A model generated the notes under the pieces. The model saw nothing but the letters and a program-made list of their open reading frames with translations. It had not been told where the DNA came from and made no database searches. Below, piece after piece: positions 18,167-39,274 of a stretch of DNA of 46,235 nucleotides. A program made the translations under genes and the position numbers. The first letter of the stretch is position 1, and each line of letters opens with the position of its first letter. The stretch comes from Ruminiclostridium sp. (GTDB taxonomy: Bacteria; Bacillota; Clostridia; Oscillospirales; Ruminococcaceae): NCBI GenBank assembly GCA_017395555.1, contig JAFPUE010000046.1:1-46235 (forward strand). The letters run 5' to 3'.

Positions 18167-20170
18167 TTATTTCTCCGGCATCTCCGCTTCAAAAACCATA
18201 GTCAGTATGTTATATCCGTCTATACGGCTGTAAACCATGTCGCTGCTTTTCATACGGGCAAGCATGATACCCATGCCGCCCCTGTCAAGCTCCTCAAACT
18301 GCGGCATTTCCCTTTCCGCCGTCACCGGGTCAAAGGCGGTGCCGTTGTCGGCAAAGGCTGCCAGCCACGTGTCCCCGATACATCTTCCCGCAAAGCGTAT
18401 CTCATCCGCACCGGAATAATTCACGATATTGGTGAAGATCTCCTCGCAGGCAAGCACGATATCTATTGCCCTGTCGTTTTCTCCGAGCGCGGAGATCGTG
18501 AGCTCCTTTACGGTCCCGAATGACCCAAGCTCGGGAGGAAGTGTCCGCCATGCGTCCGCACTGCCTTTGTACACAAGCGCAAGACAGGTGATGTCGTCAA
18601 ACTGTTCACCGCCCTCCGCGAACGCGTCCACCGATGCCAGCGTATCGCGTATCAGCGCAAGCGTATCATACGAACGGCTGTCCTCGCTGTATTCCGCCCG
18701 AACCATTTCACGGAGCCGTTCATCACCGTACGGATTTCTTCCGGTGTCAATGGCTTCCGTAACGCCGTCCGTGTACAGGAAAATACCGTCGCCGTCCCGC
18801 AGAACGATCTTCTGTTCATCTATCTGCGAGTTCTCAAACAGACCCAGCGCCACGCCGCTCATCACGTCCGGATAGAAAGGCTCACGGCTCAGTATCAGCG
18901 GCTTTTCATGCCCCGCGTTCGCAATGGTGACAATGCCGGTTTCCGTGTCGAGCATAAGCGCCGATACGGTAGCGAACATATTCTCGGGATTGGAAGCGCA
19001 AAGCTCCCTGTTCACGCGGTTGAGCGTGTCTGCGAGACCCCGTCCCGCCATTATGTTCTCCCGTATGCTGGCTTTTACGGTGGTCATAAACAGCGCCGCG
19101 GAAACACCTTTTCCCGAGCTGTCCCCGATCACGGCGCAGACCCGCCTGTCGTCCGGGCGTATCAGATCGTAGAAATCGCCGCCGACCTCACGGGCTGCCC
19201 GCATACATCCGTTGATCTCGAACCTGTCCCCTGTCACGGAGCACTCACGGGGGACTATACCGTCCTGTATTTTTCTCGCTACATCCAGCTGCGTCTGATT
19301 ATAGATACGTTCTTCCGTAAGCGCCTCAATATCGCTTACATAACGGCTGATGTCCTTCGTCATCGTACCGAAAATTTCCTCGATATCCGTGACCTCATCT
19401 TCATATAAGATCAGCCGCTTGTCCGGTGTCCCGGTTTCCTTTCTGTCCGCGGCAAAACGCCTCATACGCTGTGACAATGCAACTATCGGGCGCGTCACGG
19501 AATGACGGATAAGCAGCAGCGCGATGACGCAGGTCACGGCAATAATAGCAGCCCCGCTCAGCAGCACCTGCCACATATCATTCATGGCATCCGCATTTAT
19601 GCGCTCCATTCCGCAGTCCGCGCCTATCATGGCAACGATATTACCGTTCTCATCAAGCATCGGTACAATATGCATACATACCCAGCCGTACTCGTTGTCG
19701 ATCAGTTCATAGTCCTCGTCCTTTATCCTGTTCAGAACATTTATCTCGGCACGGTAAAGCGGCGTGGTCCTTGTCGTTCCGAATGCGTACTCTCTCTGCA
19801 TACGCTGATCGTCCTCGTCCGTGTTTGCCGCGCAGATGATGTATTGCCTGTATCCGTCCTCATTGATCGTATAAAGATACAGGTACCGGAGATTTGTACT
19901 GCGGCACAGGAATCGGAATATAGAATGCATTTCATCCCGGGTGTCCTCATCCGTATTCAGCTCTTCCATAATATTTTCCAGGCCGTATGATTCTATCATC
20001 TCCGACACAGAGTGGGCTGCCGCACCGGCAAACCGGTCACCCTGCTGAATTTCCTGATCGATCATATAGTCGTAAACAAAAAAATATGTGATCGACGATG
20101 CTATTATCATAGCGATCAGAAACAGTAAGGCTATGCGCGTAAGTATTGATGCTCTTATCTTCTTTTTCAT
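18167..20170 (-). CDS. Membrane sensor SpoIIE-type phosphatase with C-terminal RsbW-like ATPase domain
   Basis: 667 residues. A membrane helix (about 11-31), an extracytoplasmic sensor region (32-197, Cache-like by size and placement), a second helix (198-220) and a HAMP-like linker precede a PP2C/SpoIIE phosphatase (about 300-510) with GDFYDLI and GDSSGKGVSAALFM. The last 120 residues form a HATPase domain of the anti-sigma kinase type, with ACEEIFTNIVNYSGADEI, DNGTAFDP and GGMGIML. Proteins of this build dephosphorylate STAS antagonists, and the ATPase part can rephosphorylate them. The gene overlaps the STAS gene by 4 bp and precedes the NRPS by 35 bp. No sigma factor gene is adjacent, so the final target is unknown. 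Confidence 0.92.
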   Translation of the reverse strand: MKKKIRASILTRIALLFLIAMIIASSITYFFVYDYMIDQEIQQGDRFAGAAAHSVSEMIESYGLENIMEELNTDEDTRDEMHSIFRFLCRSTNLRYLYLYTINEDGYRQYIICAANTDEDDQRMQREYAFGTTRTTPLYRAEINVLNRIKDEDYELIDNEYGWVCMHIVPMLDENGNIVAMIGADCGMERINADAMNDMWQVLLSGAAIIAVTCVIALLLIRHSVTRPIVALSQRMRRFAADRKETGTPDKRLILYEDEVTDIEEIFGTMTKDISRYVSDIEALTEERIYNQTQLDVARKIQDGIVPRECSVTGDRFEINGCMRAAREVGGDFYDLIRPDDRRVCAVIGDSSGKGVSAALFMTTVKASIRENIMAGRGLADTLNRVNRELCASNPENMFATVSALMLDTETGIVTIANAGHEKPLILSREPFYPDVMSGVALGLFENSQIDEQKIVLRDGDGIFLYTDGVTEAIDTGRNPYGDERLREMVRAEYSEDSRSYDTLALIRDTLASVDAFAEGGEQFDDITCLALVYKGSADAWRTLPPELGSFGTVKELTISALGENDRAIDIVLACEEIFTNIVNYSGADEIRFAGRCIGDTWLAAFADNGTAFDPVTAEREMPQFEELDRGGMGIMLARMKSSDMVYSRIDGYNILTMVFEAEMPEK

Positions 20171-25079: not shown

Positions 25080-27335
25080 TCATTTTGCAGCGCGTTTTCT
25101 CTTGTCAAAGCCTATCAGAACAACCTTCAGTATCAGCGATATCACCCACGCGAGAATGAAGTAAATAACCGCTGTTGCTATCAACGGGAAGAACGCCTCA
25201 TAAGTGCGGCTTCTGATAATGTCACTCATCTTCGTGAGATCCTGTATCGCGATATAGCCCACTATCGACGTGCTTTTCAGCAGCGAAACGATCTCCTGTT
25301 TATACACGGGTATGAACCGTACTGCCGCCTGCGGGAAGATGAACTTGAAAAATGCCTGATTTTCATTGTAGCCGAGGGCAAGCGCCGCTTCACGCTGTCC
25401 GCCGTCGATGCTCTCGATGCCCGAGCGCATGATCTCGGACGCATACGCGCCGAAATTCAGAGTGAAACCGATGATCGCTACCCATACCGCTTCAAGTCCC
25501 GACTTTCCGAGAATGACATAATACAGTATCATCAGCAGTACCACTACCGGCGTGCCTTGCAGGAGCTTGACATAGATGTTGCTTATAGCGTTCGCGAGCC
25601 TGCTTCCGGTGCGTCGGAACATACACACAAGGAAGGCAAGCACAGAGCCCATCAGAGCTGACATCACAGTTATAAAGCAGGTCGTGCCGATACCTTCAAG
25701 TATCAGCTTCCAGCGGTCTTCGCGGATGAAATTCTTCTCGAAGCTGGAAACTATGCTGTCGAGGAAGCCAACGCTTCCGGCGTTCTGCGGGCTTTCAGCG
25801 CCGACTGCCGCGGTCACAAATACAACAGTGCTTCCCGATTCCTTATCGGAGAAGTAGACGCTTTCCGCGCGCTCGGCTGTTACCGAGATATTTGCCGCGG
25901 CCATATCGTATTTTTCCGCGGAGATACCCGGTATTACTGCGGAGAATGTCATCGTATCGAAATCCGGTGTATAACCGTACTCGCGGCAGAACATTGCCAC
26001 AAGCTCGATCTCGTAGCCCGTGACCTCGCCGTTGTATGTGTACTCCCACGGCGGCGTCGTACCGTCGCACGCAATGCTCAGGACTCCATTCTCGCCCGTG
26101 AAGCCTGTCAAATCAACGGACTGTTCGATCTCACCCTCTGTCCACTTTTTAAGAAGCACGTCCATTGTACCGTCGGCTTTTATCTTCTTGAGAAACGCGT
26201 TTATCTTATCGCGCAAAACCGCACCGTTTTCCGTTTTCGGGAAAGCAAACGCATAGGCGGTATCTTCCGCGGCTTCTTTAAGCCAGAACAGGTCGGGGTT
26301 TTCCGCTATCATAGTCTCTGCCTGATCCGTTGCCATCAGATAGCCGTCTATCTTTCCCGATACTGCCGCAAGCGCAAGGTCGGATGACACATCAAAATAC
26401 ATATACTCCGCATCCGGAAATACCTTCTGTGCAACGGGTTCGTAGGCGCTGCCTGTAAGTATCCCTATCTTCTTGTCGCCGAAATATGAAAGAGGGGTGT
26501 TTTCGGTGACAGTGCTGTTTCCTTTTACAACAAAAGCAATATAGTTGGATGTATAACTGTCGGAGAAGTACACACTTTCCGCACGTTCCTCGGTAACGGT
26601 GATATTAGCTCCCGCAAAGTCGTAAGTAGAGGACGCAAGCGCGGGTATCAGCGCTCCGAAATCCATAATTTCTATTTCAAGACCATAACCGTATTTCTCG
26701 CAGAAGCTGTACGCCAGCTCAATATCGAGACCGACTTTTTTTCCGTCCGTTATATATGTATATGGCTCGTAAGTACCGGTCGTAGCCATTCTGAGAGTGC
26801 CGTTCCTGCCTGAAAGTTCAGGTATATCCATTGTATGTGAGCCGCCGGATGACAACCATTTGTTTAGAAGCGCTTCAAGAGTTCCGTCCGAGCTGATACC
26901 GGAAAGGAATTCATTGAACTCATCACGCAGTGCTCCTCCTTTATCGGTTTTCGGGAAAGCAAAAGCTACGTCTGTCTTTGCCGACGATCCGCTGAGTATC
27001 TTAAGCCCGGTATTTTCTTCAATAAGTCTCTCCGCCTGTACATCAGAGCTGGCAAAGCCGTCTATTTTGCCTGCGGATACAGCAGCGACCATATCGGAGG
27101 CTTTTTCAAAAAATGATATTTTTGTGTCAGGCATATTCTTTTCTATGAAGCTTTCGTAAACGCTTCCTATCATAACGCCGATGTTTTTGTCCTTCAGATC
27201 GTCAAGCGACATGTATTCGTGTTTTCCGGAAGCCTCATTCTCTGAAGACACTAGCGCAACCATTATCCCTCCCGCTATCAGAAGCATAATGACCGCTATG
27301 ATTATAAAATCGACTTTCTTTGTGTTCCTCCGCAT
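25080..27335 (-). CDS. Amino-acid-type ABC permease with half-offset concatenated substrate-binding domains (751 aa)
   Basis: An N-terminal membrane anchor (9-30) is followed by three receptor segments. Residues 42-163 match only the second half of a GlnH-like binding protein (SLDDLKDKNIGV ... AFAFPKT ... GTLEALLNKW). Residues 178-402 are a complete domain. Residues 417-510 match only the first half (VLSIACDGTTPPWEY ... YDMAAANISVTAERAESVYFSD). A HisM/GlnP-type permease domain (525-751) ends the protein, with GFTLNFGAYASEIMRSGIES and the ATPase-coupling loop EAALALGY. Two halves plus one whole equal two binding domains in a permuted order. No ATPase gene lies nearby. Expected role: import or sensing of an amino acid or similar solute. 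It is paralogous to 34963-38031. Confidence 0.93.
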   Translation of the reverse strand: MRRNTKKVDFIIIAVIMLLIAGGIMVALVSSENEASGKHEYMSLDDLKDKNIGVMIGSVYESFIEKNMPDTKISFFEKASDMVAAVSAGKIDGFASSDVQAERLIEENTGLKILSGSSAKTDVAFAFPKTDKGGALRDEFNEFLSGISSDGTLEALLNKWLSSGGSHTMDIPELSGRNGTLRMATTGTYEPYTYITDGKKVGLDIELAYSFCEKYGYGLEIEIMDFGALIPALASSTYDFAGANITVTEERAESVYFSDSYTSNYIAFVVKGNSTVTENTPLSYFGDKKIGILTGSAYEPVAQKVFPDAEYMYFDVSSDLALAAVSGKIDGYLMATDQAETMIAENPDLFWLKEAAEDTAYAFAFPKTENGAVLRDKINAFLKKIKADGTMDVLLKKWTEGEIEQSVDLTGFTGENGVLSIACDGTTPPWEYTYNGEVTGYEIELVAMFCREYGYTPDFDTMTFSAVIPGISAEKYDMAAANISVTAERAESVYFSDKESGSTVVFVTAAVGAESPQNAGSVGFLDSIVSSFEKNFIREDRWKLILEGIGTTCFITVMSALMGSVLAFLVCMFRRTGSRLANAISNIYVKLLQGTPVVVLLMILYYVILGKSGLEAVWVAIIGFTLNFGAYASEIMRSGIESIDGGQREAALALGYNENQAFFKFIFPQAAVRFIPVYKQEIVSLLKSTSIVGYIAIQDLTKMSDIIRSRTYEAFFPLIATAVIYFILAWVISLILKVVLIGFDKRKRAAK

Positions 27336-27429
27336 ATCATGTTCCTCCTGCCCTATGCGTTTTCAAAGGCAATTATTCCGATCACCGATAACGCTGAATT
27401 TTCATAAATATACGTATTTATCATTTTTT

Positions 27430-27458
27430 ATTATAGCACCAATATACTGAACAGTCAA
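27430..27458 (-). promoter_or_regulatory. Promoter of the 751-aa transporter gene (shared P1 sequence)
   Basis: Minus strand: TTGACT (27458-27453), 17-bp spacer, TATAAT (27435-27430) with TGC before the -10. Over 31 bases it differs at only four positions from the promoter at 33882-33910. The leader is about 90 nt. Confidence 0.8.
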
Positions 27459-27469
27459 TAATACTGGTG

Positions 27470-27557
27470 CAAGTCAAGGAAAATTTGGTCAATATGACAG
27501 AAAAGATGCAGGCAAGACAAATGCAAAAGCGTCAGCCGTGCTTTGTGCGGTATTGCC
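27470..27557. repeat. Degraded copy 4 of the MITE-like repeat
   Basis: GCAAGTCAAGGAAAATTT, ATGACAGAAAAGATGCAGGC and the exact terminal GTGCGGTATTGCC (27545-27557) follow the order of copy 1. It abuts the P1 promoter and lies in the divergent gap between the transporter gene and the next plus-strand gene. Confidence 0.6.
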
Positions 27558-27701
27558 TTTATACTGCCGCGGAAATCCTGCAAAAACAGTGAGTTTTCAA
27601 TATCCATTTACACAGCATCGGCTTTTCTGCATTCTCACAGTCGAAGTACAAATACATTATATCACAATATTCAGCATATTTCAAGATGATTGCGCGTTAT
27701 A

Positions 27702-27730
27702 TTGACTTTATCGGCACAATATGGTAAAAT
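27702..27730 (+). promoter_or_regulatory. Promoter of the gene at 27863
   Basis: TTGACT (27702-27707), 17-bp spacer, TAAAAT (27725-27730). Start near 27737 gives a leader of about 126 nt. Confidence 0.65.
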
Positions 27731-27862
27731 ATATTACAGATATGTTTGTAATCACGAAGGTCATTTCCATAACAGACCGCCGCGAATACTGCACAGAACA
27801 ATTCCGCAAAGCACAGGACAGCACAAATACTATCTCCGGGAGAGTATGGAGGAATATTAACT

Positions 27863-28519
27863 ATGAGCCTGCTTTTAGATGAGTACATTGTAAAATATAA
27901 TGAAAAGAGTATCGGATATTATTACATCTATGATGACAACTCGGTATCCTTCAGCCTTAATTGGGGAAGTCCGTGGGATATAGAGGAAGAATTGAAAGAA
28001 CTTGGTTTACATAAAGAATACAGAGGGAAAAAGCCCCCTGCAATTTTTCACAAAATGATAAACGACGAAAACCGTGTACCGGGAAGAAAGCGTATCATAT
28101 ACCGCAAAGGGCTTTTAACATTTGAACGGCAGCCAAAGGAAACGGATGAGCGATTCTCGGTATATCAGCGTTCCGCAGATGAGGGAGCGCCGGATTACTC
28201 TCCGCTGCCGCATGACGCACCTCATTACGAGGGCGAGAAAACTCCGGAGGGAATGCGGGAATGGTGTTCGTGGTACGCTTTTAACAAAATGGACGACGGC
28301 ACATATCAGGCAGAGCTCGATGAAGCGTGGTGGTGGGGCGGCGGACACAATGACGGCGGCACTATACGGCGTGAAATACCGGAGGAATGGTTTGATCTCC
28401 CTTATGATGATTTTCTGAAAGAATTAGTCAGGATCGTATCTGCCGCGCACTATGGATTTACCCCCGAACTGCTCAAAGAAAGAGCAGGATTAAAAGAATT
28501 TTTCGGATATGGAGAATAA
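27863..28519 (+). CDS. Protein of unknown function
   Basis: 218 residues behind GGAGG (27849-27853), with no signal peptide or membrane helix, so probably cytoplasmic. It is rich in Trp, Tyr and acidic residues, with a distinctive EAWWWGGGHNDGGTI stretch and CSWYAFNKMDD. The pattern recalls small soluble proteins of the immunity or SMI1-like kind only vaguely, and I do not assign a family. It is monocistronic, with its own promoter and a terminator at 28535. Its neighbours give no hint of function. Confidence 0.75.
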   Translation: MSLLLDEYIVKYNEKSIGYYYIYDDNSVSFSLNWGSPWDIEEELKELGLHKEYRGKKPPAIFHKMINDENRVPGRKRIIYRKGLLTFERQPKETDERFSVYQRSADEGAPDYSPLPHDAPHYEGEKTPEGMREWCSWYAFNKMDDGTYQAELDEAWWWGGGHNDGGTIRREIPEEWFDLPYDDFLKELVRIVSAAHYGFTPELLKERAGLKEFFGYGE

Positions 28520-28534
28520 ACAGCAGAACTTTAA

Positions 28535-28566
28535 GTCCTCGGCAGAAATGCCGGGGACCCTTTTTA
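28535..28566 (+). terminator. Rho-independent terminator
   Basis: GTCCTCGGCA pairs with TGCCGGGGAC around a GAAA tetraloop, followed by CCTTTTT. Confidence 0.85.
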
Positions 28567-28692
28567 TGCCACACTCTCCCTTTGACCGCAGCTGTATGAG
28601 ATCAGGCACGGCACTTATCCGGGAGTCCGGACAGAGGGACCCCTCCTGTCCATGCGCGCGAGCATTACCGTGCGCCGGTTTTAATTTTATTG

Positions 28693-28721
28693 TTGCATCT
28701 GCAATAAAAATGATGTATAAT
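28693..28721 (+). promoter_or_regulatory. Promoter of the ECF sigma / anti-sigma pair
   Basis: TTGCAT (28693-28698), 17-bp spacer, TATAAT (28716-28721). It looks like a housekeeping promoter; no separate ECF-type autoregulatory site was recognised. A hairpin (GGACAG...CTGTCC, 28629-28651) lies just upstream. Confidence 0.65.
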
Positions 28722-28819
28722 ATTGTTGATAATGCCGAATATTGTATTTTGAGGTATCGTTTGCCCTTTCTCAATTGTTTTATATTCAGAAAGCGCTTTC
28801 ACATAAGGAGAAGAACCAG

Positions 28820-29296
28820 ATGTCCGGAAATGAATTGAAACGGTATGTGGAGCTGTACCGCACCAGCGTCACGAATGCAGCTTTGTTTATCGTGAAGAAT
28901 CCCGCAGACGCGGAGGATATAGTGCAGGACGTTTTCCTGAAACTGTACATACACACCGGCGAGTTCAAAAATGACGAGCACGTCAGGGCGTGGCTGCTTC
29001 GCTGTGCGATAAACGGCAGTCTGAACCTTGTACGGTCAGGCTGGCATAAGAACTCTGTTTCTCTCGACAGCATAAAAGAACTGCCGGATAATAATCCCGA
29101 AACCGGCAGCGAGATAAGAAATGCGATGATGTCACTTGACCCGAAGCTGCGCGCCGTGTTGTATCTCCACTATTTTGAGGGATATACGGACGAAGAAACG
29201 GCGAAGATGACCGGCATAAGCACGGCGGCTGTAAAAGGGCGGCTCAGACGCGGGCGTGATAAGCTGCGGAACCTTATTGAAAATGAAAGGGGCTGA
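28820..29296 (+). CDS. ECF-type RNA polymerase sigma factor
   Basis: 158 residues from the ATG at 28820 (AAGGAG 9 bases upstream); longer in-frame starts lack an RBS. Region 2 reads ALFIVKNPADAEDIVQDVFLKLY and region 4 reads LRAVLYLHYFEGYTDEETAK then GISTAAVKGRLRRGRDKLR, both typical of ECF sigma factors. The next gene follows after 4 bp and encodes the likely anti-sigma partner. It directs RNA polymerase to a stress or envelope regulon. Confidence 0.93.
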   Translation: MSGNELKRYVELYRTSVTNAALFIVKNPADAEDIVQDVFLKLYIHTGEFKNDEHVRAWLLRCAINGSLNLVRSGWHKNSVSLDSIKELPDNNPETGSEIRNAMMSLDPKLRAVLYLHYFEGYTDEETAKMTGISTAAVKGRLRRGRDKLRNLIENERG

Positions 29297-29300
29297 TCGA

Positions 29301-31046
29301 ATGGAATACAAAAAAGCAATAAACGATACTATCAATGAATTGAAAGGCTCTTTTCGTCCCGCAGACGATGACGAACTCGTAAGGGCGGTGCAAGAAAGGG
29401 CTGAAAGAATGAACGATAAAAACGAAAATATAAGGCAAGGCAGTTTCATGGAGATATCTTCGGAATACGCCGAGCCGAAAAAGTCACACAAGGTACTCAA
29501 CGTGTTCTTGGGAATAGCAGGAACAGCCGCAGTGCTTGCAGGCGCGGTTTTCGGGCTTAACTGGCTGAATGAGCACGGCGGGCTGAAAGAGCGTGAAATC
29601 GAAACAAGCGCGGGAGCGGGCTATTCGTCAAATGCCGAAACGACTACCGCTGCCGCGAAAGGTTTTGACTACATTTTTCAGTCATACAGCAGTAACGGGA
29701 GCGGATATGTAAATATTGATCAGAGATACTGTGTCGGCGATGATCTCACCGTTCATCTGAAAGGATACAGGTTTGACGGAACACTGGCAAGGATATATTA
29801 CGATCTTATTTACAAAGATGAGATCGTTGACGGGCTTTCGTCCATGCCGATACGCCCAAAGGACAGCGACATCGGACACTTTGAAAACTGCCAATTTGGC
29901 GGCGGCGGAACACTGTTTTCATGCTTTGTGAATTACCGGTTTGATACACCCTCCGAGTCGGCAGAGGTAGAATTCGGCTATACCGATGACCCGCAGAGTG
30001 ATATTTTCTCGCTTACTATGTACAAGAGCACCGATATGATCGACGAGCCTGCCGTAACGACAGCAATTTATATGACGACTCCCCCTGTTGAAGCTACGAC
30101 AGTGACTGCTGTCATTCCCGACGGCTCCGACGCTGACGAAAAAACTACGTCGGGCGATGAAATGGAAAAGGCGCACGAAGCGGAGCTTAAAGAACTCAAT
30201 GATATGAAAGCATATTACGAACATGGGTTTGAAATATATGAGGCTGCAAAAAAGATGATAGCGCTTGAAATTGCGTCGCTGAATCAAAGAAAAGAAACGC
30301 TTATGTCGGAGCTTGCCGAGCTTCAGTCTCTCGGTAAAGATACAGGGACTCTCGAACAGGATATAAAGAGTGTAGAGGAAGATATCCGCAAGCAGGAGAT
30401 CGTGCTTGAATCATACAGCTCGGAAACCGAAAATATTTATGACAAGCTCGGTGCCGTAAAGCTTAAAATTATGAAGATCGAAGCCGAGATGAAAAATCAT
30501 ATATTCTATGAGATCGGCGACGATGAAACGGAAGATAGTGAAGAAACGACAGCAATGATGAATGCTCCGGATGAAACATCACGCACCGGCTATTACGAAG
30601 GCGAAGAAGCCCTCAACATCCTGAAACAGTACGCGGGCAATGATTACTGCTACCCGCTGGAGAACTGTACGAAAGACGTGATAAACTACCGCACGCACGA
30701 CGAATGGACAGGCGATACAAGCACAGACTATCGTTTCAATATTCCCGCCGAGGAGGGCGAGCCGATACTTGCGGTAACGGGCGGCACCGTGATCGAAACA
30801 AATTCGCGGAATGTCCCCGGACAGAGCGAGGGTATTTACATCACGATACAGGCTGCCGACGGACGAAAGTGGAGATACAGCCACCTGAGCGACTATTACG
30901 TCAGCGAGGGCGACACCGTTAAAGCCGGCGACAGAATAGCCGCAGTCGGAGCGACGGGCTGGTGTACGGGTCCGCTGGTGTGCATATCCTTCCCCGACAG
31001 CGAGGTAATTGACCCTGCGAATGATACAAATAACACTGCCGGATAA
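29301..31046 (+). CDS. Putative membrane anti-sigma factor with coiled coil and degenerate LytM (M23-like) domain
   Basis: 581 residues from the ATG at 29301. The cytoplasmic N-terminus (1-63) could hold the sigma factor. One membrane helix (65-88) leads to an extracytoplasmic beta-rich region (95-270), a Glu/Lys-rich coiled coil (about 288-400) and a C-terminal LytM/M23-type fold (about 447-567) with PILAVTGGTVIE and YVSEGDTVKAGDRIAAVGATG. The zinc ligands of active M23 peptidases are absent: TDYRF replaces the H-x-x-x-D site, and TGPLVCISF replaces TGPHLHF. It is therefore probably a peptidoglycan- or partner-binding sensor, not an enzyme. The coiled coil plus dead LytM layout recalls EnvC-like regulators. 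Confidence 0.85.
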   Translation: MEYKKAINDTINELKGSFRPADDDELVRAVQERAERMNDKNENIRQGSFMEISSEYAEPKKSHKVLNVFLGIAGTAAVLAGAVFGLNWLNEHGGLKEREIETSAGAGYSSNAETTTAAAKGFDYIFQSYSSNGSGYVNIDQRYCVGDDLTVHLKGYRFDGTLARIYYDLIYKDEIVDGLSSMPIRPKDSDIGHFENCQFGGGGTLFSCFVNYRFDTPSESAEVEFGYTDDPQSDIFSLTMYKSTDMIDEPAVTTAIYMTTPPVEATTVTAVIPDGSDADEKTTSGDEMEKAHEAELKELNDMKAYYEHGFEIYEAAKKMIALEIASLNQRKETLMSELAELQSLGKDTGTLEQDIKSVEEDIRKQEIVLESYSSETENIYDKLGAVKLKIMKIEAEMKNHIFYEIGDDETEDSEETTAMMNAPDETSRTGYYEGEEALNILKQYAGNDYCYPLENCTKDVINYRTHDEWTGDTSTDYRFNIPAEEGEPILAVTGGTVIETNSRNVPGQSEGIYITIQAADGRKWRYSHLSDYYVSEGDTVKAGDRIAAVGATGWCTGPLVCISFPDSEVIDPANDTNNTAG

Positions 31047-31083
31047 CATTACCCCGTATCGCCTATAATCAGACAAACACAAA

Positions 31084-31116
31084 AGCTCCCTATCGTAAAA
31101 TTTACGACAGGGAGCT
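31084..31116. terminator. Convergent terminator
   Basis: AGCTCCCT-A-TCGTAAA pairs with TTTACGA-C-AGGGAGCT. T-rich sequence follows on the minus strand (TTTTGTGTTTG), less so on the plus strand. The following 290 bp (31117-31406) are AT-rich, and I see no gene or clear element in them. Confidence 0.75.
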
Positions 31117-31406
31117 CTGTTATTACCCGCAGGATGCCTTAACCATGGTATTTGTTAAGCATTATGTTCTTATTGTTATCTTCCCGGTAACATTTGATTA
31201 ACATCTGCTTTATAACTTGTTTTTTTACAAAACTCAAAACATATTATCGTGCATTTCAACAGACAAGTAATATTGCATAAAACAAGCGCTTTATTATTGC
31301 AATACGCACAACGATCTGATGGAATAGTATGCAGCTGTTATTATTTCAGTTCATCGGTTCGGTGTAATTGCTTGTTTATGTCCATTCCACCATATAATCC
31401 GATCAA

Positions 31407-32381
31407 TTATTGTTCTTTCAGAAATCCCATAAGCCTGTCCTGAAAATCATGATAATACGGCTTTTCAATAAATACGACATGAGATCCGCCCTTTATCATT
31501 TCAAGCTTTGAGCCTTGCGGGAGCTGATCGGCTGCGGTGTTGACAAGCCCGTAATTCAGATATGGATCGCAGTCTCCGCAGATAACAAGCGTGGGTGCTT
31601 TCAGCTTTGTCAGGTCTATCAGCTTTTGTTCGGACGAAACACAAATGTCGCGGCGTCCGCCGTTCGGACTTTGCTCACCGTCATAATGCCAGCTGCTCGA
31701 ACATAGCATTTCTATCACTACCGGATCAGCTATCGAGTAGTCGAAATTTCCGTCGGCATCACGCTGAAAATCATCTGCGGCGTGCTCCCATGTGTTGTGA
31801 TGAAACGGCTCTGTGACATCATATTCTCCGATACCGCTGAGTATCGGCGCGTACAGCACGAGCTTGTTGATGTGCTCGGTATGATCTGCGGCGAAGCGGC
31901 TCACCGTCACAGTTCCCCAGCTCCAGCCGAGAATGTCGATCTTGTCCTGTCCCGATTCTTTGACAATTTTCTCAACTGCCGCGTTTATATCCTCGGCTGC
32001 ACATTCGGTATCGGCATAGAATCCGTCCTCAACTGCTTCCGACTGTCCGAAGCCCGAAATGTCGAGCCGCCACACCGAATAACCCTCACGCGCGAGCTTT
32101 CGCACAAGGCTGTAGTCCTCATAGTCAACGTCAAATTCGTGCGAAGAATAAGTCACACCGTGAACAAGAAGAATATTTCTATCCGTCTGTACAGTATCGC
32201 TTCTGACACAGTCAAGGTGAAGCGATATACCGTTTCGTTCAAGAGGATATTCCTCATAGCTGTATGACGCTGCCTGTGTGACGCTCTGTGTCTCTGCTGC
32301 GGCAGGCGGCGTTTCCGCTTTGCAGCCGGACACGGAGACCGCCATGATTACCGCCGCAATTACAGCATATATTTTCTTCAT
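31407..32381 (-). CDS. Alpha/beta-hydrolase lipoprotein
   Basis: 324 residues from the ATG at 32381 (AGGAGA upstream); a longer in-frame start lacks an RBS. The signal peptide ends at VSGC. The fold motifs are clear: LLVHGVTYSS for the oxyanion region, nucleophile GWSWGT, an acid in CGDCDPYL and the histidine in GGSHVVF. It is a cell-surface serine hydrolase of unknown substrate. It follows the STAS-kinase gene by 22 bp on the same strand, so the two are probably cotranscribed. Confidence 0.88.
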   Translation of the reverse strand: MKKIYAVIAAVIMAVSVSGCKAETPPAAAETQSVTQAASYSYEEYPLERNGISLHLDCVRSDTVQTDRNILLVHGVTYSSHEFDVDYEDYSLVRKLAREGYSVWRLDISGFGQSEAVEDGFYADTECAAEDINAAVEKIVKESGQDKIDILGWSWGTVTVSRFAADHTEHINKLVLYAPILSGIGEYDVTEPFHHNTWEHAADDFQRDADGNFDYSIADPVVIEMLCSSSWHYDGEQSPNGGRRDICVSSEQKLIDLTKLKAPTLVICGDCDPYLNYGLVNTAADQLPQGSKLEMIKGGSHVVFIEKPYYHDFQDRLMGFLKEQ

Positions 32382-32403
32382 TTTGCGATCTCTCCTGTTA
32401 CCC

Positions 32404-33579
32404 TCAGAAACAGATCGGCTCAAGCCCGTTGTCGTAATAATCGGATATCTGCTGTTTCATAGCCCGTAACGCTTCGGGAGTTATCAGACCCGGCACAAAA
32501 ATAACTGCGTACAAGCGTCTTACCGCGCTGATCCCGCGTATCTGGTATTCCGCTTTCTTTATCAGTGTTTCGTCATCGGTATCAAGATAAGCACGGATAA
32601 ATACGTTCCATATCCTGTTTATTTCTTCGGCAGTGAAATTACGCAGAACAGGGCTCTGAGCGATCGCAGCCTTATCATTGGCACGCTCAACGAACAGCGA
32701 GTACATACTCACCATATCGAATATCGGGTGACCGGCTCCCGCTGCAACAAGGTCAATAAACATAAGCTCGCCGTCTTTGAGCATGACGTTTCCGATGTGG
32801 CAGTCGCCGTGTGTGAACGTATCTCTGTCCGGGATATTCTCATATATCTCTCTTACCTTTCGCATTTCCTCCTCGTCAAGAATCGACGCGAGCATTGACA
32901 GCGAACGTAATGAAGCTGTTTTTGCAGGTACGAACTTTCCGGTATCGACTTTTATGCTGTGCATCTCTCTGACAGTCTTTGCGAACAGCTTTATGTAGTC
33001 TTCAAGGTGCGCTTTATCCTCCGTGATAACGCTTACGAGGTCTTTGGCATCAAGCATCTCATAAACGGTACCATAGCAGTCGCCTATCCTTACGATATCA
33101 TACGGGATAGCTGTGGGAACTCCGCTTAAAAACGCCTTTCGAGCCTTGTCATTCTCGGCGTTAATTATCATGTCAAAGTTTACATCCTTGTTGAATACTT
33201 TTATGACAGTTTCATCGTCGGCGCGGTAAACACTTCCCGTTGCTCCTTGTCCTATAAGCTTCATTCCGCTTACATCGACTTTGCGGTATGCTTTTTTAAC
33301 ATCAAACAGCTCGATAAATCCTGTTGTCTCGAAAATATCATAAACATCTCTCGAAACATTGATGACGGGGAGCTGCTTGTCTATGCTCTTTCGGAGCTTC
33401 ATCAGCACACGCAGTCCAGCGCTGGATATGTATTCGAGCTTTTCCGCGTCGATCACGATATCCGATGTTTTACCTTCAATTGCGTCGCAGATCTCCTTTT
33501 CGACTTGCGGGGCGTTGTTTGTGTCTATCCTGCCTTCAAGATAAAAAGTGGTTTTTCCTTCATTTTCAGTGATTCGCAT
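32404..33579 (-). CDS. STAS domain fused to an APH-fold kinase (paralogue 1)
   Basis: 391 residues. Residues 1-100 are a STAS domain with LEYISSAGLRVLMK, where Ser52/Ser53 aligns with the phosphorylated serine of anti-sigma antagonists. Residues 106-391 are a protein-kinase-like phosphotransferase of the aminoglycoside phosphotransferase/choline kinase group: glycine loop IGQGATGSVY (109-118), Lys127 in TVIKVF, catalytic THGDCHIGNV (His257, Asp259) and metal-binding FIDLVAAG. It is soluble. A plausible activity is phosphorylation of its own or another STAS domain, or of a small substrate. Its promoter nearly matches that of the 751-residue transporter. The second copy is at 38087-39274. Confidence 0.92.
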   Translation of the reverse strand: MRITENEGKTTFYLEGRIDTNNAPQVEKEICDAIEGKTSDIVIDAEKLEYISSAGLRVLMKLRKSIDKQLPVINVSRDVYDIFETTGFIELFDVKKAYRKVDVSGMKLIGQGATGSVYRADDETVIKVFNKDVNFDMIINAENDKARKAFLSGVPTAIPYDIVRIGDCYGTVYEMLDAKDLVSVITEDKAHLEDYIKLFAKTVREMHSIKVDTGKFVPAKTASLRSLSMLASILDEEEMRKVREIYENIPDRDTFTHGDCHIGNVMLKDGELMFIDLVAAGAGHPIFDMVSMYSLFVERANDKAAIAQSPVLRNFTAEEINRIWNVFIRAYLDTDDETLIKKAEYQIRGISAVRRLYAVIFVPGLITPEALRAMKQQISDYYDNGLEPICF

Positions 33580-33687
33580 AATGCTTCTCCTTTCAAATTC
33601 TGGGGTGGTTTATTGTTAATTGGTTATTATTAAGAAGATCGAAAGATCATCTTTATATGGTTATATTTCTTCTCCCTGTAAATACCT

Positions 33688-33722
33688 TAACGGCGGCAAG
33701 GTTATCACGAATGCCGCCGTTA
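33688..33722 (-). other. Hairpin in the long leader of the STAS-kinase 1 gene
   Basis: TAACGGCGGC and GCCGCCGTTA form a 10-bp stem with a 15-base loop. It lies in the approximately 295-nt leader between the promoter at 33882-33910 and the ATG at 33579. It lacks a T-tract on the minus strand, so it is not a plain terminator. It could be an attenuation or processing structure. Upstream of it, 33727-33875 reads as protein-like in one minus frame but has no start codon. Confidence 0.4.
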
Positions 33723-33881
33723 TGCTTTATATCAGCAGAAAGTTGTCTTCCTTGCACTCGGATTTTCCGACTGCGCCGGGCTTTGCGGTCATTACCCGTA
33801 AGTTTGTCGAGCCGAACGCATCGGTAACTTTATTGATCAGGGACGCTAAACATTCCGGAATAAACTCATTTATTGCTTTAT

Positions 33882-33910
33882 ATTATAGCACAAATTAACT
33901 AAACAGTCAA
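33882..33910 (-). promoter_or_regulatory. Promoter of STAS-kinase 1 and the lipoprotein hydrolase (shared P2 sequence)
   Basis: Minus strand: TTGACT (33910-33905), 17-bp spacer ending TTTGTGC, TATAAT (33887-33882). The 31 bases from two positions before the -35 to the end of the -10 match the promoter at 27430-27458 except at four positions, more than chance promoter similarity would give. Confidence 0.8.
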
Positions 33911-33985
33911 TATTTTTCAATAAAACACCGTAGTAATATTCATAAAAAATACAACGCTGTAAATATTACAAAACACTGTTAAGTA

Positions 33986-34014
33986 TTGCATTTTTATCTC
34001 GTTTGTGGTACAAT
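33986..34014 (+). promoter_or_regulatory. Promoter of the acetolactate decarboxylase gene
   Basis: TTGCAT (33986-33991), 17-bp spacer, TACAAT (34009-34014), with TGTGG before the -10. Confidence 0.65.
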
Positions 34015-34101
34015 ATCTCTGCTACATAATTCAACAGACAGGTTCATCTTCCAAATGACCCCGAACTACCTGCTCAATACGAAAGGAGTATATCAGCAAA
34101 T

Positions 34102-34845
34102 ATGGATTCAAAATACAATTCCAAAATGTTTCAGGTCTCGACACTGCAGGCGCTTGCACTGGGTTATTCGAGAGCGGTCATAAATGTCGCCGAGCTGATG
34201 CGGCACGGAGACATCGGACTTGGGACATTCGAGGATGTAAACGGAGAGATGATCGTCATTGACGGGCATTGTTACAGAGCCGATGAAAACGGAGATGTTA
34301 CCGAGGCAGACAGCGAGATCGGAGTGCCGTTCTCGTCTGTGACATTCTTCAATGAGGAAAGGCGCTGTGAGCTTGACCGAACAGACAGTATTGATACTCT
34401 CAAGGTGTTGCTCGATCTTCGGATAGAGGAACGTTTCGGGCTGAACAGTATGCACATAGTCCGCATAGACGGCAGCTTCAGAAAAGTCTGCGCAAGAAGC
34501 GAATCCGGCTACAGAGCGCACCACGTGACGCTGAAGGACGCATTGAGCGAGACTCAGAAGGATTTCTTCTTTGATGATATAAACGGCACTCTGGTCTGTG
34601 TTTATTACCCGGATTATATGGACGGCATAAACGCCTCCGGGTGGCATCTGCATTTCATCTCGGAGGACAGAAAAAAAGGCGGTCATGTTTTTGATGTTTC
34701 AATGGAAAGAGGAACGGCATATTTTGATGCGATCACCAATATTGAACTGACCTTACCGCACGGACCCGCTTTTGACACCTACGCCCTGAAAGGCGCTTCC
34801 AAGGACGAAATAAAGAGTGTTGAACAAGGCAAAAAGAACAAATAA
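34102..34845 (+). CDS. budA: Alpha-acetolactate decarboxylase
   Basis: 247 residues. The family pattern is clear: FQVSTLQALALGYSRAVI, ELMRHGDIGLGTFEDVNGEMIVIDG, then YRAHHVTL and GWHLHFISEDRKKGGHV, which supply the zinc-binding histidines and the active-site residues. The enzyme converts acetolactate to acetoin, diverting pyruvate-derived carbon or adjusting branched-chain amino acid precursors. AAAGGAG lies upstream of the ATG. It stands alone: acetolactate synthase is not in the window. Confidence 0.93.
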   Translation: MDSKYNSKMFQVSTLQALALGYSRAVINVAELMRHGDIGLGTFEDVNGEMIVIDGHCYRADENGDVTEADSEIGVPFSSVTFFNEERRCELDRTDSIDTLKVLLDLRIEERFGLNSMHIVRIDGSFRKVCARSESGYRAHHVTLKDALSETQKDFFFDDINGTLVCVYYPDYMDGINASGWHLHFISEDRKKGGHVFDVSMERGTAYFDAITNIELTLPHGPAFDTYALKGASKDEIKSVEQGKKNK

Positions 34846-34879
34846 TACAGCTCCGATCTTCATATTATCGAATAAAATT

Positions 34880-34907
34880 GCAGTCCGGCAAATTCCTGCC
34901 GGACTGC
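34880..34907. terminator. Bidirectional terminator between convergent genes
   Basis: GCAGTCCGGCA pairs with TGCCGGACTGC. TTTGCATTTTA follows on the plus strand and AATTTTATT on the minus strand, so it serves both the decarboxylase gene and the 34963-38031 gene. Confidence 0.85.
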
Positions 34908-34962
34908 TTTGCATTTTACTGTTATTCAATTGCTCCGCGAGCATGCTCAATCTTTATCATGC

Positions 34963-37900
34963 TCATTTTGCTGCGCCTTCTCTTCTATGTTTCCTGTCGA
35001 TCGCATTCATAATTATTTTCAATAACAACGAAATTATCCAAGCGAGAATGAAGTATATCATCGCCGTTGCTATAAGCGGGAAAAACGCTTCATAAGTACG
35101 GCTGCGGATGATATCGCTCATTTTCGTAAGGTCCTGTATCGCAATATATCCGACTATTGAGGTGCTTTTCAGCAGTGATACGATCTCCTGCTTATACACG
35201 GGTATGAACCGTACTGCTGCCTGCGGGAAAATGAATTTGAAGAACGCCTTATTCTCGCTGTAGCCGAGGGCGAGCGCAGCTTCACGCTGTCCGCCGTCGA
35301 TGCTCTCGATACCGGAACGCATTATCTCGGACGCATACGCGCCGAAATTGAGCGAGAAACCGATGACCGCCACCCACACCGCTTCAAGCCCGGACTTACC
35401 GAGTATAACATAGTAAAGTATCATCAGCAGTACGACTATCGGCGTGCCTTGCAGGAGCTTCACATAAATGTTCGATATCGCATTTGCAAGACGGCTTCCG
35501 GTGCGTCGGAACATACAGATCAGGAACGCGAGCGCCGTGCCAAACAATGCAGAAAGAGAAGTGATAAGGCAGGTAGTTCCGATGCCCTCGGTTATCAGCT
35601 TCCAGCGTTCTTCTCGGATAAAGTTTTTCTCGAAGCTGCTTGCTATACTTTCAAGGAAACCTGTTACATCCGACGCGGATTTGTCCTCATCATTTACGAT
35701 CGCATTTACTGTATCTTCCTTCCGTGCGGTGACAAATAATTCTATGTCGCTGTACGGGATCGAAAAATCGACGCTTTCTTTTCTTTCGTCGGTAATGACA
35801 AAGTCAGCCATTGCGAAGTCATAAATACCGCTGATCACACCGGGGATCAATCCTCCGCCGTCAACTATTTCAACCTTTATATCATAACCGTATTCACGGC
35901 AGAAGTGAACTGCTATATCCGGATCCGCCCCCGCAATGCTCCCGTTTGCGACAAACGTTATCGGCGGCTTATCACCTGTTGTTGCAAATACAAGCGTACC
36001 GTTTTCTCCGGCAAGCCCGCTCATGTCAACACTTTTCCCGTCAGACCCGCTGCTGCGCCAATATTCGTATATGCTTTCAATAGTGCCGTTTGCTTTGGCT
36101 TTTGTTATGAACTCATCGAACTGCTCTCTTATTTTGCCTGCCTCGGCTGTTTTGGCAAATATCGCTCCGACATCGAGCGTGTCCAGCGGCTCTTCAATAA
36201 AACCGATCCTGTCGTTTTCCGCCATAAGCCCGGCAAGCCCGTCACGCGACATCAGAAAATAATCTATCTTGTTTGCTGTAAGTGCTTCTGTCAGATCGGA
36301 ATAATTTTTAAATTCCAGTCTTTGAGAATCGGGCAGTTTTTCATTGATCAGCGCGTCATGCATCGAGCCTGTTATAACGCCTGCTGTTTTTCCGTTGAAG
36401 TCGGAAAGAGAAGCCTTTTCTTCGGTTTTCGGTGAAGAAACATCCTCTGTCCTGACCACAAAACGTATATTCGCCGAATAGAACGGCTCGGAAAAATCAG
36501 CGCTTTCCTCTCTCTCGGGGGTTTTCGAGAACGGTGATGCAAGCATATCATACTTGCCGCCGGCAAGCCCCGAAAGCATACCGTTGATATCGGTATCCTG
36601 AAAATTGAGCTTGTAGCCGTATTCCCGCGCAAAACGGTACGAAAGGTCGATCGCGAGACCCGAAAGCTCCCCGTTTACGATCATATTGAACGGCGGAGCA
36701 AAAGAACATGTGCCGACATTTACAGTACCGTTCTCACCTGTAAGTCCTGTCCTGTCGATCATCTGTTTGCTTGTATCCTCTCCGAGCCATATCTTATGAA
36801 GCTCCGCGAGAGTTCCGTCAGCCTCCATTCCGGCAAGCATATCGTTGAACTGTTTTAACAGCGTCTGAGATCTCGTCTCTGTCTTACCGAACACAAAGTA
36901 GTAGCTGTCGGTATCTACCTTCTCGTCAAGGTATGAGATCCCGCCGTTTCCGGTATGTGTGGCTATTGCAGTAGGTTCATCCGACATATAGCCGTCGATG
37001 CGATGCTCCAGCAGTGCAAGATTCAGATCGGAATATGTATTGAAATACAAGTATTCACCGTCCGGGAATTTCTCAAGAGTGATAGGTTCGAAGGAGCTTC
37101 CGGTCAGTATTCCTATCCGCTTATCCTTGAAATACGACAGAGGTGCAGCCGCAGCAGCAATGCTGTTTTGTGACACAATATCCTCTGATCTCACGGCGAG
37201 CACGATCCCCCCGTTATAGACAGGCTCGGAGAAATTTACCGACTCCCTGCGCTCCTCGGTCACGGTAAGCGAGGAGGCGCACATATCATACTTTCCCGAA
37301 ACAATACCCGGTATTCTTGCCGAAAAATCAACATCTTCAATATCCGGCGTATAGCCGTATCTGCGGCAGAACAATTCAACAAGCTCTATGGAATAACCGA
37401 TATTCTGATTATCCTTGATATACGAAAACGGTATGTCGGTAGAGGTGGTCACAACATTCAGCGTTCCGTTCTCACCCGAAAATCCGGTAAGATCCACAGT
37501 CTTTTTGCTCTCGTCAGCGCCGAACCATTTTGACTTCATTTCTTCAAGAGTGCCGTCAGCTTCCAGACTTTCAAGCATCTCGTTGAACTTATTTCTGATG
37601 TCATCAGCCCTGTCACTGTCCTTCGGAAATCCGAAAGCATAGTTATCGTGCGTTATCATTTCACTGAGATAACCTATCTGCGGCTGCTCGGAATTCATTA
37701 TCCTGAGCGTGGGCTCCTCGCCGAGAAACCCGTCGATCTTGCCCTCCGTGAGCGCTTCGCCTATATCTGAATAGCTGTTGAAATAAAGGTACTCGCTGTC
37801 CGGAAAATTCTCCATAGTGGGCGCTTCAAAATCAGTACCGGTTATTATTCCGAGCTTCTTGCCTATATAATCCACGGCTGTTACTTTTCCGTCGCCGTTT

Positions 37901-38031
37901 GTGTCCGCGGCGGCAGGATCCCCGGTCTGCGGTTCATTCTGAGACAGCAGCGCCAGCAGTATCCCACCCGCGAGCAGCAATATTAAGACCGCTATGATTA
38001 TGATATCAACTTTCTTTGTGTTCTTTCGCAT
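34963..38031 (-). CDS. Amino-acid-type ABC permease with half-offset concatenated substrate-binding domains (1022 aa)
   Basis: A larger paralogue of 25080-27335. After a membrane anchor (9-30) come a second-half segment (54-172), two complete binding domains (189-418 and 436-662), a first-half segment (679-772) and a permease domain (792-1022) nearly identical to that of the paralogue. Linkers repeat the phrase TGENGT. The halves at the two membrane-proximal ends could together form a third binding domain. Residues 43-54 (DTNGDGKVTAVD) match a single EF-hand/dockerin-type calcium loop. No partner ATPase is in the window. It is the last gene of an apparent operon with the phosphatases and STAS-kinase 2, 55 bp after the latter. 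Confidence 0.93.
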   Translation of the reverse strand: MRKNTKKVDIIIIAVLILLLAGGILLALLSQNEPQTGDPAAADTNGDGKVTAVDYIGKKLGIITGTDFEAPTMENFPDSEYLYFNSYSDIGEALTEGKIDGFLGEEPTLRIMNSEQPQIGYLSEMITHDNYAFGFPKDSDRADDIRNKFNEMLESLEADGTLEEMKSKWFGADESKKTVDLTGFSGENGTLNVVTTSTDIPFSYIKDNQNIGYSIELVELFCRRYGYTPDIEDVDFSARIPGIVSGKYDMCASSLTVTEERRESVNFSEPVYNGGIVLAVRSEDIVSQNSIAAAAAPLSYFKDKRIGILTGSSFEPITLEKFPDGEYLYFNTYSDLNLALLEHRIDGYMSDEPTAIATHTGNGGISYLDEKVDTDSYYFVFGKTETRSQTLLKQFNDMLAGMEADGTLAELHKIWLGEDTSKQMIDRTGLTGENGTVNVGTCSFAPPFNMIVNGELSGLAIDLSYRFAREYGYKLNFQDTDINGMLSGLAGGKYDMLASPFSKTPEREESADFSEPFYSANIRFVVRTEDVSSPKTEEKASLSDFNGKTAGVITGSMHDALINEKLPDSQRLEFKNYSDLTEALTANKIDYFLMSRDGLAGLMAENDRIGFIEEPLDTLDVGAIFAKTAEAGKIREQFDEFITKAKANGTIESIYEYWRSSGSDGKSVDMSGLAGENGTLVFATTGDKPPITFVANGSIAGADPDIAVHFCREYGYDIKVEIVDGGGLIPGVISGIYDFAMADFVITDERKESVDFSIPYSDIELFVTARKEDTVNAIVNDEDKSASDVTGFLESIASSFEKNFIREERWKLITEGIGTTCLITSLSALFGTALAFLICMFRRTGSRLANAISNIYVKLLQGTPIVVLLMILYYVILGKSGLEAVWVAVIGFSLNFGAYASEIMRSGIESIDGGQREAALALGYSENKAFFKFIFPQAAVRFIPVYKQEIVSLLKSTSIVGYIAIQDLTKMSDIIRSRTYEAFFPLIATAMIYFILAWIISLLLKIIMNAIDRKHRREGAAK

Positions 38032-38086: not shown

Positions 38087-39274
38087 TTACACCGGCATTG
38101 CAAACAGCTTGCAGAAATTGTCGGTATTCGGGAAAAGCTTCTCGCGAAGCATTGCTATCATTGCTTCCGCTCTTCCCGAGACATTATCTGAATCCATTCC
38201 GAGCGTTGTTGCCATACGCATAAGCGCGAACGCTCCGCACCTCTGCCCGAGGAACTCCAGCTTCTGCTTGTCTGTCGTACCATAGTATGTTGACAGAGTT
38301 ATTCCCCATATCTGCTTTGAAAGCTCGTAATCAAGACCGATCACCCACTTCGTTACATTCGGATCGTTCATACCCGCAATATACATTACAAGGAATGTGC
38401 CGCCGATATCGAAAAGCGAATTGCCGCGGCTTATATCCGCCATATCAATAAGTACCAGCTCACCGTCCGACTGCACCATAACATTGTTTGTGTGATAATC
38501 GCCGTGTACCATTCCGCTGCCGTCGGGAACTGAGTTTATCATCCTGACGAGCTGTTCGTTTTCCTCGTCGGTAAAGTATTTTCTCGCTTTTTCGGCTCTT
38601 TCGAGATATATCTGCCTGATGTCACCGTAGAGCTTCGGATCGGCTTCCGTGGAGTTGAGAGTTTTGAGAAGAGTTCCGAACTTTACAGCGTATTCCTGAA
38701 GTTTTTCGGGATGTTCCGTTACGAATTTGCTCACGGTCACGGCTCCTGCCATTTCAAACACAAGCCCGTAGCCCTCCTCCGTTTCGACAATGTCGTAAGC
38801 GATAGCGGACGGAACGCCGTGTACGAATGCGTTCTTTGCATATTCGCGTTCCTTTTCGATAAGCGAGAGCGGGCTGTGATCGTGATAAACCTTGATGATC
38901 GTTTCCTCGTCAAGCCGATACACTTTGCCGTGTCCGCCCTGACCGATAACCTCGCAGCCCGCGAGCGACACCTTACGCAGAGCCTTTTTCACATCGAACA
39001 GCTCTGTAAATCCGGTGGTGTCGAAAATTTCGTAAACATCGCGGGACACGTTGAACACGGTTACACGTTTATTCGTGGATTTCGCAACTTTCATAAGTAC
39101 GCGCAGTCCAGCGCTCGATATATATTCGAGCTTTTCCGCGTTAAAAGTCACCTGCTTTTCCTTGTCCTGTCCGATCGCGTCGAATATCTCCTTTTCGATC
39201 TGCGGAGCATTGTTTGTGTCTATTCTTCCTTCAAGATAAACGGTAAGGACGTTGTTTTCGATTGTTGTTTTCAT
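38087..39274 (-). CDS. STAS domain fused to an APH-fold kinase (paralogue 2)
   Basis: 395 residues, same layout as 32404-33579. The STAS part (1-100) is almost the same, with LEYISSAGLRVLMK and VSRDVYEIFDTTGFTELFDV. The kinase part has IGQGGHGKVYRL, a lysine in TIIKVY, catalytic VHGDYHTNNV and LIDMADISRG. The kinase halves have diverged much more than the STAS halves, suggesting a shared STAS partner but different kinase substrates or regulation. AGGAGG precedes the ATG. It sits between the PAP2 phosphatase gene (22 bp) and the 1022-residue transporter gene (55 bp). Confidence 0.92.
   Translation of the reverse strand: MKTTIENNVLTVYLEGRIDTNNAPQIEKEIFDAIGQDKEKQVTFNAEKLEYISSAGLRVLMKVAKSTNKRVTVFNVSRDVYEIFDTTGFTELFDVKKALRKVSLAGCEVIGQGGHGKVYRLDEETIIKVYHDHSPLSLIEKEREYAKNAFVHGVPSAIAYDIVETEEGYGLVFEMAGAVTVSKFVTEHPEKLQEYAVKFGTLLKTLNSTEADPKLYGDIRQIYLERAEKARKYFTDEENEQLVRMINSVPDGSGMVHGDYHTNNVMVQSDGELVLIDMADISRGNSLFDIGGTFLVMYIAGMNDPNVTKWVIGLDYELSKQIWGITLSTYYGTTDKQKLEFLGQRCGAFALMRMATTLGMDSDNVSGRAEAMIAMLREKLFPNTDNFCKLFAMPV

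Follow-up and report, generated by a model that had tools for sequence, protein, structure and literature searches.

The amino-acid importer GlnPQ is organized as two substrate-binding domains (SBD1-SBD2) followed by a permease, the whole acting as a homodimer with the GlnQ ATPase, and its linkers are 14 aa between the domains and 19 aa between domain and permease (PMC8025302). A circularly permuted glucose-binding protein, TpMglB-2 (Tp0684), has been assigned to 'Type Ic / Cluster Bc', and its authors report relatives in Gram-positive gut bacteria, most of which they consider to be tethered (PMC4990184). In the literature searched (one open-access library, with most subscription journals outside it), TpMglB-2 was the only natural permuted substrate-binding protein (SBP) recognised, and no report of permuted amino-acid SBPs was found. 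The present analysis deals with two fused transporter genes, P0001 and P0002, from Ruminiclostridium sp. (assembly GCA_017395555.1); the window is the whole analysed stretch of 46,235 nucleotides (contig JAFPUE010000046.1). Plasmid searches gave no record covering 80% of P0001; the matches were below 60% identity and bore amino-acid SBP or permease names.

Judged from sequence, P0001 and P0002 are, with a probability of about 0.93, GlnPQ-like amino-acid-type importer permeases to which complete, circularly permuted SBP_bac_3 domains have been fused, two in P0001 and three in P0002. Both would be permease subunits of an ATP-binding cassette (ABC) importer with the receptors fused on, each receptor starting as the old C-terminal half (h2) of a GlnH-type domain, continuing through a short joint of near-fixed length and ending as the old N-terminal half (h1). 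Each permuted domain would shut around its ligand in the manner of a Venus flytrap and would dock onto the permease homodimer, and the ATPase would be supplied in trans by a GlnQ-like gene on another contig of the same genome (C73). Movement of the termini while the halves still form one domain is suggested by sequence order and covariation only.

Domain Organization of P0001 and P0002

Both open reading frames (ORFs) are open throughout. Pfam SBP_bac_3 (PF00497) matches P0001 with E 1.6e-57 and P0002 with E 3.1e-86, both domain halves matching the family, and BPD_transp_1 (PF00528) matches with E 5.8e-19 and 6.7e-20, respectively. The permease, C-terminal to the receptors, is of the GlnP type (PF00528 and TIGR01726 above cut-off). 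Hidden Markov models (HMMs) of the half-domains, seeded with the window's own halves and afterwards widened, gave the order anchor-h2-h1-h2-h1-permease in P0001 and anchor-(h2-h1)x3-permease in P0002. This bears out the order given in a preliminary description of this DNA (2-1-2-1-P and 2-1-2-1-2-1-P, P being the permease), which had taken the inner h1-h2 stretches as complete domains and the outer halves as possible partners of each other. The same string of halves parses equally as two (P0001) or three (P0002) complete h2-h1 units; the canonical h1-h2 order within one SBP_bac_3 domain was not found in either protein, the unit being h2-h1. The features are as follows.

25080..27335, minus strand: P0001, 751 aa; N-terminal anchor, two predicted circularly permuted SBDs, permease (ORF, Pfam, HMM)
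27231..27335, minus strand: P0001 N-terminal membrane anchor, aa 1-35 (hydrophobic stretch in the sequence)
26847..27218, minus strand: P0001 h2 of unit 1, aa 40-163 (HMM)
26514..26816, minus strand: P0001 h1 of unit 1, aa 174-274 (HMM)
26130..26504, minus strand: P0001 h2 of unit 2, aa 278-402 (HMM)
25803..26102, minus strand: P0001 h1 of unit 2, aa 412-511 (HMM)
25089..25775, minus strand: P0001 permease domain, aa 521-749 (PF00528 5.8e-19, HMM)
34963..38031, minus strand: P0002, 1022 aa; N-terminal anchor, three predicted circularly permuted SBDs, permease (ORF, Pfam, HMM)
37933..38031, minus strand: P0002 N-terminal membrane anchor, aa 1-33 (hydrophobic stretch in the sequence)
37870..37905, minus strand: P0002 EF-hand/dockerin-like loop, linker before unit 1, aa 43-54 (Dockerin_1 E 8.5e-4, below cut-off; pattern)
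37507..37887, minus strand: P0002 h2 of unit 1, aa 49-175 (HMM)
37177..37479, minus strand: P0002 h1 of unit 1, aa 185-285 (HMM)
36769..37146, minus strand: P0002 h2 of unit 2, aa 296-421 (HMM)
36436..36744, minus strand: P0002 h1 of unit 2, aa 430-532 (HMM)
36049..36420, minus strand: P0002 h2 of unit 3, aa 538-661 (HMM)
35710..36012, minus strand: P0002 h1 of unit 3, aa 674-774 (HMM)
34972..35664, minus strand: P0002 permease domain, aa 790-1020 (PF00528 6.7e-20, HMM)

Occurrence of the Layout in Fused Relatives

Relatives were collected with P0001 or single-unit permuted proteins as queries, from one scan of genome contigs (70 loci) and from 297 family, 394 order, 391 class, and 398 phylum genomes, samples that share some genomes. 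The choice of queries means that the frequency of canonical SBP-permease fusions cannot be inferred from their absence among the relatives. The counted set comprised 130 distinct ORFs with a permease match and at least one half match, the two of the window included and contained duplicates removed; the layout and covariation counts refer to the collection before the late addition of loci. The search for homologues, proposed in the preliminary description as a check, showed the layout to be common to the relatives: 124 of the 130 fused ORFs read (h2-h1)n-permease, with n = 1 in 31, 2 in 52, 3 in 32, 4 in 8, and 5 in 1 (5 of the 124 are also 5'-cut, and for these n is a minimum). The half adjoining the permease was h1, never h2, in 130/130. 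Given these two counts, the half order in P0001 and P0002 is not due to chance. Among the six exceptions, L017, L033, L036, and L168 are 5'-cut by the locus end, L070 is a gene broken into two ORFs, and in L209 one h1 was missed; a few of the 124 (e.g., L085, L113, and L116) have a partial first h2 owing to a stop, frame break, or locus end. The 64 fused ORFs from loci of named origin were distributed over Clostridia (59: 27 Oscillospiraceae, 7 Lachnospiraceae, 2 Eubacteriaceae, 1 Christensenellaceae, and 22 without family), Bacillota without class (4), and one locus named Bacteroides.

This recurrence bears on the possibility of an assembly artefact or of mis-predicted genes, which the fragmented assembly of the window's genome (137 contigs, 86.67% complete) might invite. 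However, the layout is present in many separate assemblies, including a scaffold of Lachnospiraceae bacterium AC3007 (L067), and in genomes assembled into one or a few contigs (G747 and G020, for example), and an artefact is improbable to the point of being negligible.

The EF-hand/dockerin-type loop pattern seen in P0002 gave 11 matches in 10 of the 124 fused proteins (P0002 included), always directly preceding an h2, 10 before the first h2 and one between units; it was found in 0/69 free-standing SBP ORFs.

Free-Standing and Single-Unit Permuted Proteins

The h2-h1 arrangement was also found in 31 ORFs without a permease domain, of which 30 were uncut by a locus end. A lipobox-like motif (loose pattern) precedes h2 in 29 of these 30, and a permease-domain ORF and an ABC-ATPase ORF are also present in all 30 loci; at L021 and L200, the local permease is a fused one. 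The window's own genome encodes one such free-standing SBP, on contig C39. As both free-standing (30 uncut) and single-unit fused (31) forms exist, an h2-h1 unit suffices by itself as a binding domain, in circularly permuted form, and the closing pair of half-domains proposed in the preliminary description is needless.

Comparison of the free-standing protein L097 with solved canonical SBPs by PDB sequence search gave two swapped blocks in both alignments inspected. With AncQR, residues 9-104 corresponded to aa 174-268 and residues 108-232 to aa 37-156 of L097, an arrangement that, at the level of sequence, reads as the plain signature of circular permutation. Among the best 60 of 112 matched sequences, each represented by its best stretch alone, that stretch was one half in 59 and spanned both halves only in 6h30; the swapped order itself was read in the two alignments. 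L097 aligns without a break (aa 38-265 to 102-327) to the 460-aa chain of 6h30, which we take to be the GlnP tandem.

On contig C75 of the same genome (L259:2190-3077), a 295-aa lipoprotein-like SBP was observed in which the C-terminal Pfam part precedes the N-terminal part; no permease or ATPase was recognised by eye among ORFs of at least 180 aa in the surrounding 6.5 kb.

Pairing of the Half-Domains

The continuous match of 6h30 to L097 would also suit a decayed or truncated canonical tandem, with the outer halves being non-functional remnants of full domains, and loss of outer halves from such a tandem is a plausible evolutionary route. Yet the outer halves of the window proteins score 136 and 126 bits in P0001 and 163 and 114 bits in P0002, against 124-149 bits for the inner halves. 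The h1 Arg, presumed to bind the ligand carboxylate, is kept in all five window units and in 231/234 multi-unit h1 halves, and decay would leave the single-unit proteins without any intact domain. Further, the within-protein HMM score residuals of h2 and h1 of the same unit correlate (r +0.71, n = 231; +0.75 in proteins with n>=3), the shifted pairing giving -0.46 (-0.33 for n>=3), where centring alone gives negative values. Decay of a canonical tandem is hence regarded as highly improbable.

The lengths between halves point to complete h2-h1 units. The h2-to-h1 joint is nearly fixed at 8.0 (SD, standard deviation, 0.92; n = 268; HMM-extrapolated gaps), and that of the free-standing proteins is 8.5 (SD 1.6, n = 28). 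The h1-to-h2 gap in fused proteins is loose, averaging 3.2 with SD 4.4 and a range of -4 to 25 (n = 144), whereas the h1-to-h2 gap of canonical SBPs is -3.6 with SD 0.55 (n = 35); Levene tests on the gap lengths (h2-to-h1, h1-to-h2, and canonical h1-to-h2) gave 4e-50 and 1e-10. The h1-h2 stretches that had been taken as complete domains thus show the length variation of linkers.

Covariation was evaluated in 90 of the 93 multi-unit fused proteins, three being dropped for halves with >=30% gaps, with 91 single-unit proteins as reference (canonical SBPs, permuted free-standing SBPs, and fused ORFs with n = 1). The strongest column pair in the reference was h2 104/h1 37, and 107/40 ranked among the first four; the two pairs reappear within units of the multi-unit proteins (0.214 and 0.232) and are near 0 in the shifted pairing. 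The 107/40 pair is presumably a salt bridge of flipping polarity. Counted as opposite/same charge, it stands at 148/7 of 231 within units, 68/29 of 141 between neighbours, and 31/19 of 90 for closure, i.e., the first h2 with the last h1 (Fisher test, 7e-11); in a non-redundant subset of 52 of the 90 proteins, the counts are 78/5, 36/18, and 13/12 (7e-7). Single-unit permuted proteins gave 29/1 of 56 and canonical SBPs 22/2 of 35.

These counts contradict the proposal of the preliminary description that canonical h1-h2 domains lie inside and that the first h2 and last h1 pair beside the permease. Such a closed ring is permitted by the order of the string, and both chain ends are attached to membrane parts. 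However, closure would bring like charges together in 13 of the 17 proteins that have both charge polarities (the closure pair being opposite in 1 and uninformative in 3), the h1-to-h2 stretches are loose, unlike canonical ones, and the free-standing h2-h1 proteins need no closure. At a second position, closure alone gave no association of the expected kind in the non-redundant set (odds ratio, OR, 0.34, p 0.13). Ring closure is accordingly considered very unlikely.

That second position is a ligand-site pair, h2 column 58 and h1 column 72, which presumably correspond to Asp157 and Thr70 of GlnH. Within units, an acidic residue at column 58 goes with T/S/N at column 72 (OR 14.5, p 3e-17; non-redundant OR 11.5, p 3e-9), p-values that are post hoc because the multi-unit data behind them had also served to select column 72 in a scan of the h1 columns. 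The shifted pairing gave OR 0.78, p 0.45 (non-redundant 0.49, p 0.12). In the single-unit proteins, which were not used in choosing column 72, the OR was 18.8 (p 2e-4).

The post hoc choice weighs against the reading as complete h2-h1 units, and so do several other points. The whole covariation map agrees weakly with the single-unit map (0.108 within units and 0.035 shifted, against a null maximum of 0.044 in 20 shuffles), 7/15 top single-unit column pairs fail to reappear within units, where their value is 0.02 or less, and the within-unit advantage at the top 20/50/100/200 pairs gave p 0.053/0.009/0.018/0.054 in a paired test. Kinship inflates the counts, an effect that the non-redundant subset and the column-specific tests reduce but do not remove. 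The unit of duplication can also differ from the unit of folding. Some free-standing ORFs (L134-L136 and L138) have a weak h2 match of 23-43 bits. The column of the Asp presumed to bind the ligand amino group (h2 58) carries S and A in P0001 and E, D, and S in P0002, and no ATPase gene was found adjoining either window gene in a domain scan of the window and a check of the P0002 locus.

Presumed Ligand Site and Probable ATPase Partner

At the same columns, canonical SBPs carry the Arg in 34/35 and the Asp in 34/35, the roles of both residues being presumed. Co-loss of the h1 Arg with the h2 acidic residue is uninformative because the Arg is almost never lost. Going by its residues, unit 2 of P0002 looks most like an ordinary amino-acid receptor; the remaining window units may bind other ligands or have become spacers.

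Of the 98 relatives that lack a fused ATPase and for which >=900 nt downstream were covered, 70 have a same-strand ATPase ORF no more than 1.5 kb downstream, and 18/124 fused ORFs have a C-terminal ATPase domain. The genome of the window holds one full-length ATPase match that includes the C-terminal extension, a 364-aa GlnQ-like protein on C73 (L257:4376-5470) that is 79% identical to the ATPase of L021; the next-best ATPases, on C39 and C92, match only over the first ~250 residues. No SBP or permease gene was recognised among the ORFs around the C73 ATPase, where no domain search was made. The C73 ATPase is probably the shared partner in trans of P0001 and P0002.

The partner-type ATPases, both those beside or fused to relatives and that of C73, have an extra C-terminal ~120 aa with weak resemblance to HATPase_c_2 (10/19 members at E<=1, best 2.7e-4; 19 scanned of 69 representatives). 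Comparison of this extension with the window's own HATPase domain by hhalign gave a probability of only 13. It could be a regulatory domain.

Multiplication of Units and Origin of the Permutation

Units are gained or lost whole, as linker-h2-h1 blocks with breakpoints at linkers, and this supports the duplication of whole units in the permuted frame envisaged in the preliminary description. L034, with four units, shares 98% identity with the three-unit L032 across 985 residues, and the extra 252 residues of L034 (62-313) start and stop just before an h2. Units 3 and 4 of L205 are 98.7% identical, corresponding to a tandem duplication of 753 nt (18 mismatches in 760), the edges of which fall in the h1-to-h2 and h1-to-permease linkers. 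The window units are mutually only 30-45% identical per half; hence, their duplications are old or the units were acquired by exchange.

A quick tree of 133 units, those left once redundant ones had been filtered out, needs 8 changes between canonical and permuted forms, and its starred branches alone force at least 3; a constraint keeping the canonical rows together was not rejected (log-likelihood 57.7 lower, p-AU, approximately unbiased test, 0.09). In a canonical tandem, an h2 and an h1 adjoin at the junction and make up an h2-h1 unit (compare 6h30), so that the likely route is a duplication after which the outer halves were lost. It is tempting, albeit doubtful, to go further and regard the domain boundary of this receptor family as movable. 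A tandem of either form has the other spanning its junctions, and the canonical and permuted forms would interconvert through such tandem fusions; the permutation would then have arisen more than once. The tethers of permuted domains would leave from the crossover between halves and not from the old termini, which would allow one permease to carry a string of as many as five receptors (and a homodimer as many as 10), some of which would have been turned to other ligands.

Neighbouring Genes in the Window

Two STAS-APH (phosphotransferase-like) fusion proteins are encoded at 32404-33579 and 38087-39274, minus strand, and one of the genes, co-oriented with P0002, stops 55 bp upstream of it. A model built on the two gave matches in 16/124 loci, that of the window among them, in many cases at a distance of some kb. 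A protein with SpoIIE phosphatase and HATPase_c_2 domains (18167-20170, minus strand) adjoins a gene at 9306-18131 (minus strand) for a 2941-aa protein resembling nonribosomal peptide synthetases, with AMP-binding, Condensation, PP-binding, and C-terminal NAD_binding_4 (reductase-like) domains. The SpoIIE/HATPase_c_2 protein and the STAS proteins recall parts of partner-switching systems.

Comparison with Known Systems

If the reading as permuted units is correct, a common amino-acid receptor fold of ABC importers is naturally circularly permuted, both in free lipoproteins and in one to five fused tandem domains. Such proteins would offer a natural series for studying how docking and transport depend on tether position and receptor number, and their naturally permuted scaffolds could be used to build biosensors. 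Parsing with a canonical model makes them appear as whole domains between loose halves, as in the preliminary description.

The canonical SBP_bac_3 lipoproteins (GlnH/ArtJ-like; 38 ORFs, with L007 in the window's own genome) have the same two halves, the same Arg/Asp columns, and the charge pair at the same columns; they differ from the permuted units in the order of the halves. GlnPQ resembles the present proteins in having tandem SBP_bac_3 receptors fused through linkers to a GlnP-type permease. However, its SBDs are canonical (h1-h2), whereas the fused ORFs described here are h2-h1 with one to five units. The likeness to TpMglB-2 lies in a naturally permuted bilobed binding protein of an ABC importer, which in that case still binds ligand and changes conformation. 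TpMglB-2 is a free-standing lipoprotein with a type I sugar-binding fold, permuted in the N lobe. The window proteins do not belong to that sugar-binding family, their matches being amino-acid-type SBPs; in contrast to TpMglB-2, they would have an amino-acid-type fold that is cut between its halves and is, in addition, fused in tandem to a permease.

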